From Sanghuangporus weigelae (lineage: Eukaryota; Basidiomycota; Agaricomycetes; Hymenochaetales; Hymenochaetaceae): 64,000 bases of DNA. Positions 12,201-50,948 of the stretch are shown here, piece after piece (position 1 is the first letter of the stretch; every line of letters starts with the position of its first letter). The stretch is taken from contig CP137318.1 in assembly GCA_033182465.1 (NCBI GenBank), positions 2,232,001 through 2,296,000 on the forward strand. The letters run 5' to 3'. Position numbers and translations under genes: made by a program. The notes below the pieces were generated by a model. It saw only the letters and a program-made list of their open reading frames with translations, was not told the origin of the DNA and ran no database searches.

Positions 12201-13484
12201 TGGCAGCTTTTTCAAGTGTCTTGATCAGGCACTCACACTTGTTGCTATCTTTTCGAGTCGTGACCCTTTCCTTTCTCCACCATTGATGAGGAAAGAGGCG
12301 CAGGCTGTGAAGGACTCGTGGTGCCCCGAAGAGTTTCGATCAGACGCTTTGGCATGCTTGAGAGCATTCAACGCGTGGTATGAATTCGAGCAGCGGGGCG
12401 ATCGCAGAGGAGCAGCCCGATTTTGTGGAGAAAATTTCCTCTCCAAATCCACGCTTATCATGGCTGCAAAGGTGAAGAAGCATTTGCTAGAGTCACTAGC
12501 TAAGGCAGGCATTCTGGGTGTTTCTGCTGGTGGGGCTAGCAACATGACTTCTGGTCGCATTACTGCCGTGCCTCCCGAACTTAATGCCAACGAGGATTCC
12601 TTACCGCTCCTCGCTGCATTGATTGCAATCGCAAGCCAGCCTAAATTTGCGATTCGAACTGGTCAGATGACCTATAGAACTGCTCAAGATAAAGTGAGTT
12701 TTCTCTTCCTACGCAACCTATCAACGATTTGACTGTTTCAAAATCGAAGTTCACGGTTATGCACCCTTCGAGCGTCAACCACAAAAGGCGTGTGCAAGAT
12801 GATAATATACCTATTTATCGAGAGAAGCAACTATTTGCTTATTCCGAGAAGCGCCAGAATTTGTCCTCGGTTGCCCAGGGACCAGGACAAATGACGCTTA
12901 TTGGAACGACTCGTCTCGATCCGATGACTTATGTTTTGTTTGGCGCGTACAATCTTGAGGCGTCTGCAAAGGGTCTTGAATGCGACGAATGGCTGCCAAT
13001 AACCGGAAATGTTGATGCACTAGATGAAGTTCGTCGCTTGAAATTGTTGATGGAAGGATGCTTGCTTCGCGTTTTCGAGGGCATTAATAACAGTAATGCA
13101 AGGGGAGTACAACGGCGGAAACGCGAAGTGTTTGCATCCAACAAGTACATCCCGCCTGCTCTCCGTCAGAATCGGGACATTGATGAAGACGAGTCCGGCG
13201 ATGAGGAAGACTCGCCTGGACAGTCCCGTGGACCATTAACGGAGGCAGAGATAGTAGAACTGGACAGCTTCACACAGGCGATTGTGGACGTGCTGGATAG
13301 ATATGCTGATGAAAGACGACAGAGTCAGTCCCGGATGAGTTCACGGCCTGCTACACCAACGCTCAGTCCGTCATGGGCATCGAGATCTCTACCAGGTTCA
13401 GGCTGGCGATCTGGAACATCCACACCTCTTAGGTACGAGTCGAGGCCGAGTACACCGAGCTGGCCCGGCGCAAAGGGAGGCTGA
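9283..13484 (+). CDS. DEAH-box dsRNA-binding helicase, DHX9/MLE-like
   Basis: This RNA helicase of about 1,330 residues combines N-terminal dsRNA-binding domains with a DEAH/RHA core. After a basic low-complexity N terminus come two dsRBD-like segments. One contains ASLTNFMSTRLGQ...TIKVTDDVVGVGDGANKRDAEQMASLAA; the other contains ARQFMDYYCRKFRFGQP with GWEAIMTVGGRKIGMG and AKSKKDAMKNTYVDVVCYL. Helicase motifs follow in order: AATGSGKTTQIPQ (I), TQPRRLAAI (Ia), DEVHERD (II), SATVDS (III), VFLPGWEE (IV), STNVAETSVTIP (V) and QRAGRAGR (VI). The HA2 and OB-fold regions end with KFTVMHPSSVNH after an intron at about 12696-12752. A Ser/Pro-rich tail closes the protein. Three introns are visible. 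The start at 9283 gives a basic MRIALLLRQRRVQLLR; Met at 9334 is an alternative. Confidence 0.9.
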
Positions 13485-13714: not shown

Positions 13715-16700
13715 ATGGCGACAACGATGCGCGGATTGACACAGGTAATCTCTGCATGCGTTGTCTGCTACCTTCAGACTGCAGACTGACGCGCTTGTCC
13801 CCGACCGAATCTAGTTTATAGCGGATATTAGAGGTGCGCGAGTCAGAGAGTTGGAGGAGAAGAGGATAAACAAGGAAATGGCAAACATACGGAAGAAGTT
13901 CAAAGGTGCGAGCTTTGCCTGTCGATGTGCGAACGATCCCTCACGCACCTCTACCTTCAGACGGAAACCTTGATGGATATCAGAAAAAGAAGTCCGTATC
14001 ACGAAGCTTCCCTTGAACGCCGGCTTAGTTCTGTTGCAGATATGTGGCGAAAATTATATTCACATATATCTTGGGCTACAAGGTGGATATTGGACATATG
14101 GAAGCCGTCAATCTCATCTCCAGTCATAAATATAGCGAGAAGCAGATTGTAAGGACTGTCGTTCACTTTAAAAACTTCAGCTTATGGTTGGACATACAGG
14201 GATATCTAGCTGTGACCTTGCTTATGCACGAGAATTCGGACTTCTTGCGCCTTGTCGTGAATTCGATTAAAAAGGATCTCGATGACAATAACGAAATCAA
14301 CAATTGTTTGGCTCTTCATGCTATAGCTAATGTTGGTAGTGGGGAGATGGCGGAAGCTTTGGCAGAGGATGTCCATCGGCTTCTGATTTCTCCGTAAGGA
14401 ACTTGCTTTGTCTAGCTCCAGCGGATGCTGAACATTATCATAGGACTTCGCAGAGCATGGTTAAGAAGAAGGCAGCTCTTACCTTATTACGATTGTATCG
14501 TAAGCATCCAGATGTCATCCCTGCGGTGGAATGGGCTCTCCGTATAGTGGCGATCATGGATGACATGGACTTGGTGCGCATCGCTAGTTGTCTTGGGCTA
14601 AGAAGAATTATTGAGGCCGACGTCTGTTAAGGGAGTTGTGAATTGTGTGATGAGTCTGATCATGGCAATGGCTCAGGATCACTTGGATGTATATGCTATA
14701 TGCTACCAGAAGGCTGTTGACAGGCTACGACGGGTCAGACTTTTTAACTTCGACCAGATATTTCTTTGCTCATGTTTCCGTATAGATCATCATGGAGAGA
14801 GAATACTCAGCGACCTATGCTTATTACAAAGTTCCTTCCCCATGGCTGCAAGTGAAGTTGCTCCGCCTCCTGCAATATTACCCTCCTTCTGGTATGTCTT
14901 TTCTCCGATGTTCATGCACGCTTTTTAACGCTGTATCCGGAAGATGACCCGTCTATACGATCCGTCCTCCATGAAGTTCTTCAGACCATTATGAACAACT
15001 CGGCCGAACAGTCACGTAATGTACAGCATAACAATGCGCAAAATGCTGTTTTGTTCGAGGCGATTGGCCTCGCCATTCATCTTGATACAAATTCACCGCT
15101 GGTAGGGACAGCTGCGGTCCTCCTTGCTCGTTTCATAAGCTCAAAGGAGACGAACGTTCGGTATCTCGGCTTGGATACGATGGCACATCTTGCTGCGCGA
15201 GTAGACTCACTAGAGAGCATCAAGAAACACCAGGGTACGATCATCCTGTCTCTGCGAGATAAAGACATTAGTGTCAGGAGACGAGCTCTGGATCTCCTAT
15301 ACAGTATGTGCGATGTCGATAATGCAGAGCTTATAGTTGGCGAGCTTCTTCAGTATCTAAAAGTCGCCGATTACGGCTTGCGAGAGGAAATGGTTCTAAA
15401 GATAGCCATTCTAACGGAAAAGTACTCGACTTCATACAAGTGGTACGTTGATACCATCCTTCAGCTCATTAGTGCAGCTGGAGACCACGTTGGCGAAGAA
15501 GTGTGGTACCGTGTTGTCCAAATTACGACGAATACCGAGGACCTACAACCTTATGCAGCGAAAGTTGTTTTTCAACACTTGCGATCGCCGTCAAGTCATG
15601 AAAGTCTCATCAAGGTTGGCGGTGAGTAGAACATCGCATGATTCATTGACAGGTGACAATAATTTTCGAAATAAAGGCTATATCCTAGGCGAATACGGGC
15701 ATTTGATCGCGAATGAGCCAGGGTATAGTCCATCCGAGCAGTTCATGATTTTACACGCGAAGTCACAGTTCTGTTCCGCTCCGACACGCGCGCTTCTTCT
15801 ATCGACTTACATCAAATGGGTCAATGTGTTCCCCGAGATAAAGCCGCATCTCGTCGCAGTCTTTGAACGCTATCGATACGTACTGGATTCGGATCTACAA
15901 CAACGTGCTTGCGAATACTATGCTCTGGCGTCACGGCCAGACGATGACGAACTATTACAAAACGTTTGCGAAGAAATGCCGCCCTTCCCTCCGCGGGAGT
16001 CCGCTCTTCTCGGAAGGCTAAATCGCAAACTCGGTGACACGGAAGATAAACGCACCTGGATTCATGGAGGGAAGGAGGCTAACTTAGATCGTGAACTTCT
16101 TCGACAAAAGACAGTCCGAAAAGGAACTGTCAGTGTTCCAGAAAGCAACGGTGCATCTGCTTCATCGGCGACTGCAGCTGGCGATGACAGTGATATACTA
16201 AACTCGCTTGCTGGTCTTGATCTTACTTCGCCGTCCGAGATTAAACCACCTCTCAATGAAGTCAAACCTCCTGTTCCTCCTATCACTCACGGGGCGAACG
16301 TTGATCGTTGGTTTGAGAAACTCTGCTGCGCTCGAGAAGGCGTGCTATACGAGGACGTTCAAATTCAGATGGGAATTAAATCGGAGTACCATAGCCACGA
16401 GGGACGCTTGGCCATATACATCGGAAACAAGATGTCTGCACCGCTTACTTCATTCACTGCTACCCTTCATGTTCTGGAACCAGATACCCTTTCGGTTACG
16501 TTTCTGAAAATGCCACCTAGCTCAATCGCTTCACGAACGCAAGTTCAACAACTGTTGAACGTCGAATGCAAGAAGATGTTCAATCAATCGCCCCTTCTCA
16601 GCGTCGCGTTCCTCGCGGGAGCTCACCAGACGGTTACAGTTCGCTTACCAGTAGTTATCACGAAGTTCTTCGAGCCCGTCAAACTTGCACCTTCGGACTT

Positions 16701-27600: not shown

Positions 27601-30600
27601 TAGCCTTGAGGCTTGTCGACATGCCTTACAATCAGAAGAGCCAGACCCTAAACTCCACATCTTAGAGCGCGTTAACATCGACTTAATGGCGCAGAACTCC
27701 ATTGTGCCTTCCGCACGTAGTCTCAGCCGCTTCAAACTTTCTGGAAGACTACCCAATCTGCATGTCAATTTTTCAGATAGCAAGTACAAGACACTCGTGC
27801 GCTTGATTGACGTTGCTCTGCCCCGCTTTGGGGATGATTCAGAGAACAAGCGAGCACCACAGCCTACCACAAAGACGAAACCAGCTTTTCAGACCTCGGT
27901 CAACTTGTTTGGTTCTGAACAGGAAGAGTACATTGTGGACGATGTATCCGTCAAAGAAGCCTCTGAAGATGAGGTGGAGTCATCAAATAAAATGGTGAGT
28001 ACAATGTTATTTCTGGTACATGCAATACCTGGTAACACGTTCTTTCCCTGAAAGCTATCGGACGTCCGTCAGCACCAGTTTGAATTCTCATTTCGAGTGG
28101 ATTCGCTGCAAGCGACAATGTCGCGGACGGCAGCGGATGGCACTGAGCGAGCACTAGGCAGTCTTGTTTTGGACCATTTCCTTCTCAGTTTTGCGATGGC
28201 TAAATTCGAAATGAAGGTTGACATAAACCTCAAGTAGGCGATCAGTCAGTAACATAGAATTTTCACTCACTATTATCTTAGGGCCATCAACTTGAAGAGT
28301 TCACCTCCCGGATTGGAACCTCTTCTACTCATATCAACAGAATCCGACTCTTCGATGGGAACGAATTTGATGAACATCGCTTACCGCCGCGCTCAAGAGG
28401 CTTCTCCTGACTTTATATCTGTATATGACGGTTACAACCAGTCCGTGGACGTTAGTCTGACCACGTTTGTTCTACGCTCCATGCCAGAGCACGTCTTATC
28501 GCTATATGACTTCATCATGACTACATTCGTTCCGAATAATAACGGCACTGCTTCCCAGCAAGTGGAAGGACCGATTTCGCCTGAGAGTCCCATTGACCAG
28601 CCTTCTGATCGGGTCTCTAGTGATCGTATTCGCGTACGTTCTAGATTGGCCAGTTTTCAAGGTCAGATCCCTGCATTTCTACATCGGATGCCTGCTCAAT
28701 TACAGTTTACCACAGTTTTACTGCTGGATAACGCTGCCACTCTGGCTAATTTATCTCTCTCAACGGCAAACGTGGACGTTGACCTGGGAGAAGACGGGAT
28801 GGTTGTCGTGGCTCGTCTCGGAAAGCTTCAACTTACGGATGAATCTCCATTGGAAACGAAGTCCGCTGACTTCAAGCACCTTCTCTCGATCGAAGGAGAT
28901 GAATTTGCTGAGTTGAGATACAAATCTTTCACTCCTGCGCAGTCTTTGCAGAAAGGAATCAATTCTTCTGTCGACTTAACGACCGGATCATTGAAGCTAC
29001 ACTTCCTCGAAGCTCCTTTGAACAGCATATACCTGTTTCTATTGAAGTTTGCGCGTCTCAAAGGGCTTTATGATGCGGCCGCCGAAGTTGCCGTCCAACA
29101 AGCAGCGAAGGTTGAGCGAATGGCCTTCCAACTAAATGTGCGGTCCCCAATAATAATATTTCCAGCCGATCCATCCCGATTGGACGACGTATTTACGCTT
29201 AAGCTGGGAGAACTGGAGGCGCATAACAAGTACGAGGGCTCCGCTCAGTTCATCATTGGAAGCCTAAGTGGAATCCAGTTGGCATCCCTGTTTTACGTTG
29301 CCGGAAAATCGGAATTGAGAATCATCGACGATGTAAACATCTCTACGGAAGTCATTCAGTCTCAACTTGCCGATAATCAGTCCCAAGCGGAGATTCCGGA
29401 GTTTAAGGCGAGATACTTCCGTCTGTCGTCGAATTCTGCTAAATTGTGAACATAGGTAAAAGTCGACGTCTCAGATGTCCGTCTTCAGCTAACAGAACTA
29501 CAATACTGTCGAGTCGTCGCACTGTCACGTTCGATTCCTGCTGTGTTTGCTGGTTCCACGCAGGTTGACACGGCAACGAGCCAGGCGCTCGTGAAACCAC
29601 AGCTGCCACGTTCCGACGCGCAAACAGATCTTCTTCCTGAACTGAGCCCGAAGTTGCCTTCTTCTGGGAAGTTGACGATTAAAAAATTCGATCTTGTTCT
29701 ATCAATGCGAGTGGTGAAGCTGCATTTGTATGGCCCAGGTGCACTCACCGAGGACAGCCTAAGTGATCACGGTATCGCCAAATTTGCGCTTTCTGGTACG
29801 ACCATGACGTTGGATGTGCTTCTGAGCGGCGCGCTGCAGAGCCAGCTTTGGATCAAATCGTTTACGATGAGCAATACAAAACCCGGACCCTCGAAATTCA
29901 GAGAAATCTTTCCTGCCGCAGATCACGACCGCGATCAATTTCACTGTCTCTTCACGTCATCAGAGGGTCCGGAGGCATCCTCGCAAATCGTGGCTACTCT
30001 CGATTCGCCGCACATAATATTTTCAGTCGAGCCTATATTTGCTTTGTTTAATTTCTTTTCGAGCGCATTTGACCCGGCGAAGAACCCTACAAGTTCGGCC
30101 CCGCCTACAAACGAGGCTCTGGAACAGACCGCGAAGCCCTCTGTTAGTAACGAAGTTCCCTCCAGTCCGACAATGAGTTTCCGTTTCGATCTCTACGATG
30201 CGATGGTCAATCTTCTCGAAGACGACCAGAAAAATGATGCTCAGACCATTAAGCTTTCATTGGCACGTCTATCGCTTTCTAAACAGGTACGAGCGGAAGT
30301 ATTTTCTATGCATACGTTTATCTGATTAAAGGGCTCAGAATGCAATGGTGTTCGACATGCATAAATTAGGCATGTCCCTGGCCCGCATGAACAAACAGGC
30401 AGACGCTGTCCGTTTTCTGGATGACGTCGATATCAAGTTGGCCTCAGAATCCCGCTCTGAATGGAATAGGCTGTTCACTGGCGTGAACGTAACTGTGGAA
30501 CAAGAACTCGTCCTCAGGGTATCATATCGAGACATATTGCTTATCCAGACGATAGTCAACAGAGCTACAACTCTATTCTCGGGTTCGGATACCAAGGAGG

Positions 30601-49568: not shown

Positions 49569-50948
49569 TCAGAATGGCACCTCGTCAAACAGCTTGGACA
49601 CACTCTCTCCGTAGTGACTGCGTCGGATGACCTCCCCGAGCACTATCCCGATATCGATCACCTCTATCTTCGAGCACGCCGCCTGGTGCGCATCCTGAGG
49701 TATCGTATTCGTAACAATCAGCTTTTCCAGCGTACTCTCCTCCAGGTTCTTGATCGCGTTCCCACTCAATATCCCATGTGTCACAATCGCAACTACCTTT
49801 ACTGCTCCCGCTTCTGTCAACTGCTTCGCTGCGAGCACTAATGTCCCGCACGTGTCTGCCATATCGTCCACCAGGATCGCCGTCTTTCCTTTTACACGGC
49901 CCACAAGCACCATCCGCGAGACTTCGTTCGCCTTCTTGCGCTCTTTGTGGAACAAGGCGAAATCGACGCTCAGTCGGTCGGCAATCGAAGTAGCTCTGAG
50001 CAAATGAAAATAAGTACGGACGGCCGGACGTTGGGCGCTGCGGTCTAGACCTCCTCACCGTTTAGCACCGCCCGCATCCGGACTGACGATTACGACATCA
50101 TCCAAGTTGTAGTGTGTTTTGATGTGGAGGATGGCAGATGGCTCCGCAAACAGCTTCGTTCGTGACATGACATGCGTGTGATTTTCAGTTCTAATAGCTT
50201 ATAACCATATACAACTCACACTGCATAATATCATTATTTCACTCATCAATTCTTGTCTCACTGTGTGCAATTTCGACACTCACTTGTCCACTGGCACATC
50301 GAAGAATCCCTGGATTTGCGACGCATGCAGGTCCATCGTCTGCTCCAAAGCAGCGCGTCCAATGATATACAACAGAGTTATTTCTACCCAATAGCCGAAG
50401 AGAGCTGAGCTTCGCTGACGTACAATAACATGGTCGCAACCGCTCCTCTGCAACATGTTCGCGACGAGCTTTGCCGTTATCGGCGCACGGCTCTTGTCCT
50501 TCTTGTCCTGTCGCGCGTACGGGAACAACGGCAGCACCGCGGTGATGCGCTTCGCGCTCGCAATTTTACACGCATGGATCATGATGCACAACTCCATAAG
50601 TGATCTATTCACCTGCCCGTAGCCAGTATTCACAATGTATACATCGTGCTCGCGCACTGACTCCGCAACTCGAACAGAAGTCTCGCCGATCCCGTTGCAT
50701 GTTATTTCTGCCTTGGAAACAGGAATCCCAAGTCTGCGCAGTTGAGCGCCGGCGGGGTGTATGCGGTTCACAGTGAGCATCAATCGGTTGGACAGGAATG
50801 ACATAGGTGATATCGTACCGACGTGCTATAATCTCTGCAAGCTCAGGGTGGCTCGTCCCTATAGCAATCGACAGTGAGTTTATCCGTGAACATGGTGTCA
50901 GGTGGGTAATGTACCGGTGAAAATTTTGAGTCCACCCGCAGACAGCAT
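49569..50948 (-). CDS. PRS: Ribose-phosphate pyrophosphokinase (PRPP synthetase)
   Basis: PRS makes 5-phosphoribosyl-1-pyrophosphate from ribose-5-phosphate and ATP for purine, pyrimidine, His and Trp synthesis. The protein starts [39 protein letters not shown]. It contains [109 protein letters not shown] and the PRPP loop [13 protein letters not shown]. It ends [11 protein letters not shown]. The product is about 325 residues with no large insertion, so it is the catalytic, not the NHR-bearing, type. Six introns are predicted. Keeping PVDNLFAEP in frame needs a 1-nt exon at 50220. The stop is TGA at 49569-49571. Confidence 0.93.
50220..50220 (-). other. PRS: Apparent 1-nt microexon of PRPP synthetase
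   Basis: On the minus strand the upstream exon ends ...GTG GAC AA at 50284 with donor GTGAGT. A TATGCAG acceptor precedes a single T at 50220, which is followed by a second perfect GTGAGT donor. The next exon starts CTG TTT GCG GAG at 50153 after CGAAG. The T completes AAT (Asn), giving PVDNLFAEP. The introns are 63 nt (50221-50283) and 66 nt (50154-50219), normal sizes here. Direct joining without the T shifts the frame. An alternative acceptor TTAG would insert 13 residues in frame. Confidence 0.6.

Follow-up and report, generated by a model that had tools for sequence, protein, structure and literature searches.

The T at position 50220 is likely to be an exon of a single nucleotide, probably a constitutive one, in a probably fungal PRPP synthetase gene on the minus strand (50948-49569) of the window, that is, the whole 64-kb stretch of DNA that was analysed. 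The reading phases of the two exons next to it differ by a single base, and inclusion of the T gives AAT, the conserved Asn codon of the motif PVDNL.

The PRPP synthetase gene and its product

The coding sequence starts with exon 1 (50915-50948) and continues with exon 2 (50819-50858), exon 3 (50424-50733), and exon 4 (50284-50339), all on the minus strand as are the features that follow. Exon 4 ends with VPVD-AA (GAC-AA), leaving two codon bases over before a GTGAGT. Intron I4 (50221-50283, 63 nt, GTGAGT...ATGCAG) separates it from the proposed exon at 50220, and intron I5 (50154-50219, 66 nt, GTGAGT...CGAAG, with a weak acceptor) lies between the T and the next exon (50059-50153), which begins with CTGTTTGCG and is read as CTG TTT GCG at the start of LFAEPS. 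The last coding exon (49569-49995) runs to the stop codon. The lengths of the introns are, in order, 56, 85, 84, 63, 66, and 63 nt.

With the T included, the coding sequence comprises 963 nt and specifies 320 amino acids followed by a stop, and its remainder is free of inner stops and frameshifts. The product matches PF13793 (4e-47), PF14572 (4e-40), and PF00156 (4.7e-14), all above the curated cut-offs. Its comparison with chains named Ribose-phosphate pyrophosphokinase 1, which we take to be human PRPS1, yielded an E value of 5e-125 and 200 identical residues among 314 aligned (64%); the alignment starts at residue 6 in exon 1 and is free of gaps at PVDNL.

Reference introns of the window

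Splice site matrices were based on 37 introns from other genes of the window. In one setting, the unsupervised gene finder recovered few genes, and the PRPP synthetase gene was part of its training. Looser settings were discarded, since they produced more than 1000 false introns. When introns up to 260 nt were allowed, 32 were obtained after filtering, four of them of at least 130 nt (164, 212, 253, and 199 nt). The final parse, with a maximum intron length of 110 nt, yielded 53 introns in nine genes, three of them in the PRPP synthetase gene, and split the four long introns by added exons or shifted boundaries, which appeared partly plausible by eye. By hand curation, 37 of the 50 introns outside the PRPP synthetase gene were kept, while the 13 dropped lay at the end of a gene or adjoined very small, questionable exons; one further intron in a VPS13-like gene (about 30287-30339) was left out as well. 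Together with four introns of the PRPP synthetase gene, a set of 41 curated introns was obtained. All are of the GT-AG type with acceptors CAG (20), TAG (15), AAG (5), and GAG (1), and their lengths range from 47 to 85 nt with a median of 55 nt; the absence of introns above 85 nt is partly due to the 110-nt maximum of the parse.

Splice solutions between exon 4 and LFAEPS

The original prediction had stated that the two exons are out of phase if joined directly, and this was borne out base for base: removal of the whole 130 nt between them abolishes the reading frame and leads to a stop at codon 168. Between the exons, the acceptor ATGCAG, the T at 50220, and a second donor GTGAGT at 50219 follow one another, the first donor GTGAGT being located at 50283. 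The arrangement CAG-T-GTGAGT is thus a canonical AG-N-GT, and the flanking introns of 63 and 66 nt have spliceable lengths. Both sites had been noted before, the second donor as a perfect one, which applies to positions +1 to +6 only, position -1 being a T. Likewise, the two lengths had been called the local norm; they lie inside the range of the 41 curated introns, but above their median.

In an enumeration of one- and two-intron solutions, donors (GT or GC) and acceptors (AG) were taken from the vicinity of both exon edges; introns had to measure 40 nt or more, and inner exons no more than 45 nt. The sequence SAILHI was reached without a stop by six single-intron and 13 two-intron solutions. 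Exactly one of these gives VPVDNLFAEPS, namely removal of I4 (50283-50221), inclusion of the T at 50220, and removal of I5 (50219-50154). Three others also give VPVDN, each with a defect downstream: LFAE is lost in the first (acceptor GGAG at 50142), EIMILCS is inserted in the second, which requires a 42-nt intron ending with TGAG, and the third combines both the loss and the insertion. The predicted restoration of AAT and of an ungapped PVDNL by the T was confirmed, and the reading of this base as an exon gained support, being the sole enumerated solution that leaves PVDN-LFAEPS intact and one that is improbable by chance (see below).

Among the single-intron solutions, a 93-nt intron (50283-50191) ending with TTAG (AG at 50192-50191) deserves attention. 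If it were used, the 37-nt stretch 50154-50190 would be exonic, and the protein would have experienced a lineage-specific gain. This had been foreseen as an in-frame insert of 13 residues; it is indeed in frame, but 13 codons replace the one Asn, so that the net gain amounts to 12 residues. The intron leaves no stop in frame, and stop-free in-frame tails of 37 nt are common, being found in 15 of the 41 curated introns. The coding score of the stretch is intermediate, corresponding to the 10th percentile of coding pieces and the 85th percentile of intron ends. With 93 nt, the intron is longer than all 41 curated introns, whose parse maximum was 110 nt. It also breaks PVDNL, and both AG-T-GTGAGT and the AG placed precisely where LFAEPS begins would be accidental. 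Considering also the conservation described below, it appears unlikely that this intron accounts for the gene.

The three possibilities predict different junctions in the mRNA. Inclusion of the T should result in GACAA-T-CTGTTTGC, skipping in GACAA-CTGTTTGC, and use of the TTAG acceptor in GACAA-AACTGAAAATC.

Conservation of the PVDNL motif

For comparison, at least 120 loci were collected; the 120 listed all have bacterial titles and are mostly from Oscillospiraceae/Clostridia and Rhodobacteraceae. Degenerate patterns designed for eukaryotic relatives gave no matches in viral contigs and none in genome contigs. At 120 of the 120 bacterial places listed (at least 120 in all), the codon after VD specifies Asn, 85 times as AAC and 35 times as AAT; the search pattern prescribed VD together with the two leading bases of the codon after it, leaving the choice of Asn or Lys free, but not the preceding motif. 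Of the 120 loci, 106 with an open frame of more than 250 amino acids were aligned and 14 were dropped. The columns of the insert specified by the TTAG intron are empty in all 108 aligned proteins (106 bacterial ones, PRPS1, and the product of the window with the T included), although this set, picked by pattern and narrow in its bacterial part, says little about the tolerance of an insert in a fungal lineage.

In human PRPS2, the backbone of D143, the Asp neighbouring the Asn, is described as contacting ADP in the allosteric site (PMC10227994), and V142L, within the motif of the PVDNL region, is reported as a disease variant of PRPS1 (PMC7403961).

Splice site and branch point scores

Compared with the 37 reference introns, the donor of I4 outscores 21 and its CAG acceptor 11, and the donor of I5 outscores 12. 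The acceptor of I5, GAAG|C, is above only one reference intron and below 36, while the competing TTAG acceptor outscores 12 of them; the scores are 1.27 for GAAG and 2.96 for TTAG, in favour of the 93-nt intron. When the scores of the sites were summed with terms for length and a prior on intron density, the difference between the model with the 1-nt exon and that with the TTAG intron ranged from -0.33 to +2.0 nats, depending on the prior. Hence, splice signals alone barely favour the 1-nt exon over the 93-nt intron. By the same sum, the 130-nt intron is exceeded by 1.96 to 5.09 nats, before any penalty for the frameshift. A gene finder whose splice matrices had been derived without the PRPP synthetase gene picked the 1-nt exon, even though the 93-nt intron was permitted; its coding model, however, had been trained with a portion of this gene included, introns of 130 nt exceeded its maximum, and the last exon was misread.

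Branch points were searched with fixed patterns. CTRAN was enriched, being present in 22 of the 41 curated introns compared with 10.0 in shuffled sequences. Candidates are TTGAT in I4, 25 nt before its end and a moderate pattern match only, and CTGAA in I5, 31 nt before its end. For the TTAG intron, CTRAN and YTNAY are absent 8-45 nt upstream of the acceptor, and none of the seven tested patterns was found in this range. This is weak evidence against it, because intron 3 of the same gene, which is supported by homology, also matched none of the tested patterns; in the fixed-pattern scan, CTRAN was absent from both introns 2 and 3. A branch point model learned by EM had drifted to T-rich tracts and was replaced by the fixed patterns; in it, the 2nd percentile was assigned to I4 and the 15th to each of I5, the 93-nt intron, and the 130-nt intron.

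Inside I4, at 50261 on the minus strand, another overlap resembling an acceptor and a donor is present, CACAGTGAGAC, with a donor score of 4.33 and an acceptor score of 2.42. Paired with the I4 donor, this acceptor would define an intron of just 23 nt.

Chance occurrence and sequence accuracy

The interval was shuffled 20,000 times with dinucleotides preserved and six bases fixed at each end. In 0.105% of the shuffles, a 1-nt exon arose whose two inner sites equalled or exceeded the actual ones, and in 0.07% the Asn was restored as well. When every exon of 1-16 nt that restores the frame was counted, with sites of equal quality, the share was 0.775%. With lenient thresholds, the values rose to 0.61% for 1 nt and 3.06% for 1-16 nt. 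In the 64 kb, YAGNGTRAGT was observed four times compared with 1.49 expected, and four occurrences were reached in five of 100 shuffles. The motif by itself is therefore not rare; its place and phase are what count.

These values also bear on the possibility that a base is missing from the sequence, either by an assembly or sequencing error or by a real deletion of one base in this strain, and that the true or ancestral gene contains one in-frame intron of 130 nt. A base missing at either exon edge would account for the phase conflict, and the 130-nt intron would have a strong donor and share branch point and acceptor with I5. On the other hand, the AG-T-GTGAGT in the middle of the intron would then be a coincidence of about 0.001, or 0.03 under loose rules. 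The rest of the PRPP synthetase coding sequence is undisturbed, and a gene for Hsp104 in the window, with a coding sequence of about 2.7 kb, aligns at residues 2-888 of 895, its two best matches being 5d4w (Putative heat shock protein), presumably a Chaetomium protein, and 6d00 (Calcarisporiella thermophila Hsp104). By these matches, the DNA of the window is likely to come from a fungus. The intron would also be longer than every one of the 41 curated introns, which were obtained with a parse maximum of 110 nt; the earlier assessment of the single 130-nt intron as long and frameshifted was thus upheld. A missing base is considered improbable.

Proposed order of splicing

The interval is best explained by two short introns of the U2 type lying one base apart inside a single Asn codon, the first in phase 2 and the second in phase 0. 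Recognition of both would follow intron definition, for which the missing length of the exon would be no obstacle. I4 and I5 are not spliceable simultaneously, because the donor region of I5 (-3 to +6) contains the AG of I4, and splicing would consequently be sequential. Most likely, I4 would be removed first, joining GACAA to the T and converting the next donor from AGT|GTGAGT to AAT|GTGAGT. This order is favoured by the score of the I5 donor, which rises from 4.75 to 5.67 upon removal of I4. I5 would be removed next by means of CTGAA and GAAG, and the product would carry AAT and PVDNL. In filamentous Ascomycota, intron definition is described as the mode by which short introns are paired, and neighbouring introns as removable in successive reactions (PMC6616335). 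It is assumed that splicing of this kind takes place here too.

Both products might be made, inclusion of the T resulting in active enzyme and skipping or retention in early stops and decay, by which the enzyme level would be tuned. Stops would indeed be encountered early, at codon 148 upon retention of I4, at codon 154 upon retention of I5, and at the codon mentioned above upon skipping, and the weak GAAG acceptor could render removal of I5 inefficient. Premature stops upon intron retention are commonplace, though, and such a dual output, which overlaps with the explanation preferred here, is regarded as very unlikely. Equally unlikely is a role of the 1-nt exon as a checkpoint in this core housekeeping enzyme, in which the two introns would have to be removed in strict order through the weak second acceptor, failure leading to premature stops, and the level of PRPP synthesis would be set by the order and efficiency of splicing.

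A stwintron was also considered. In fungal stwintrons, a splice element of the outer intron is interrupted by an inner one, and no base from between the two is retained in the mRNA (PMC6616335, PMC5639578). Stwintrons and the arrangement in the PRPP synthetase gene have in common that two U2 introns are in immediate contact and need consecutive splicing. In the PRPP synthetase gene, however, one base would stay and no splice site is split. This reading was rejected, since removal of the whole interval shifts the frame and the I5 donor is uninterrupted. I4 and I5 are not similar to each other, their score being reached or surpassed by 975 of 1000 shuffles; the next best matches in the window were 15-21 nt in length with E values of 0.1 or worse. 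In view of this dissimilarity, nothing points to an origin by duplication of one intron.

Relation to known one-nucleotide exons

One-nucleotide exons had been called almost unknown in the original prediction, with plant APC11 as the case at hand. This view is outdated, since such exons are also reported for plant VPS55 (PMC8831610) and for CYP621A of Fusarium (PMC12940212). The exon of Arabidopsis APC11 is described with cDNA and GFP-construct tests and lies in a composite interval of 422 nt (PMC4674806, 2015). As in the PRPP synthetase gene, a single base between AG and GT restores the frame, but APC11 is a plant gene with a much larger interval. The 1-nt microexon of VPS55 is reported to be conserved across land plants and is supported by RNA-seq and RT-PCR (PMC8831610, 2022). 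It is also followed by a GTRAGT donor, but this is a plant gene again, and the exon is found throughout land plants.

The closest precedent is CYP621A, in which a 1-nt exon is located in a conserved motif, with a composite of 139 nt in F. graminearum; 18 RNA reads from two species are given, and the authors claim it as the first for a fungal gene (PMC12940212, 2026). Like CYP621A, the PRPP synthetase gene would be a fungal nuclear gene with two short introns around one base between out-of-phase exons, the frame being restored in a conserved motif. As described for CYP621A, the base is a G (AG-G-GT), is common to the orthologues examined, and is backed by RNA reads, whereas in the PRPP synthetase gene, which specifies an unrelated enzyme, it is a T predicted from the sequence. 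Papers using similar terms also deal with mitochondrial genomes, namely with cox1 of placozoans (PMC5436844) and with the mitogenomes of Ophiostoma (PMC12308204). In the open-licence literature, no 1-nt exon in PRPP synthetase was found in titles or shown abstracts among the matches listed.

Judged by its sequence context, the 1-nt exon of the PRPP synthetase gene is probably real. If so, it would be the second independent one in a fungal nuclear gene among the matches listed from the open-licence literature, and it would be located in a core metabolic enzyme, as opposed to a P450, CYP621A, which is called rarely expressed by its authors (PMC12940212). It would also support the notion that exon size has no lower limit under intron definition. 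For annotation it would represent a pitfall, as pipelines that do not consider exons of 1-2 nt would wrongly annotate an insert or declare the gene frameshifted or a pseudogene.

Further observations in the window

Scans of the 64-kb window for tRNA genes and Rfam families gave no matches. In an adaptin-like gene, an exon of 31 nt was predicted (13961-13991, plus strand), Adaptin_N being detected in another exon of the model, so that exons of such small size are perhaps nothing exceptional in this genome. On the C-terminal side of a DEAH/dsRNA-binding helicase (12694-12857, plus strand), either an intron of 164 nt or a 15-nt exon (12773-12787) was obtained, depending on the parse. The open reading frame suggests one shorter single intron, and the interval is doubtful.

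Intron 3 of the PRPP synthetase gene (50340-50423, minus strand) has a length of 84 nt, divisible by three, and is in frame without a stop; if retained, it would lengthen the protein by 28 residues and leave the frame intact. Codons 35-43 of this gene (50679-50705, minus strand) specify ITCNGIGET instead of TKKFSNQET in PRPS1. Comparable changes occur in yeast PRS genes. Phe and Asn are lost, and Glu (E39) is kept, a residue described as touching adenine (PMC13252144); a further stretch of 16 residues is kept as well. Judged by these changes, the gene may represent a paralogue whose nucleotide binding is altered.
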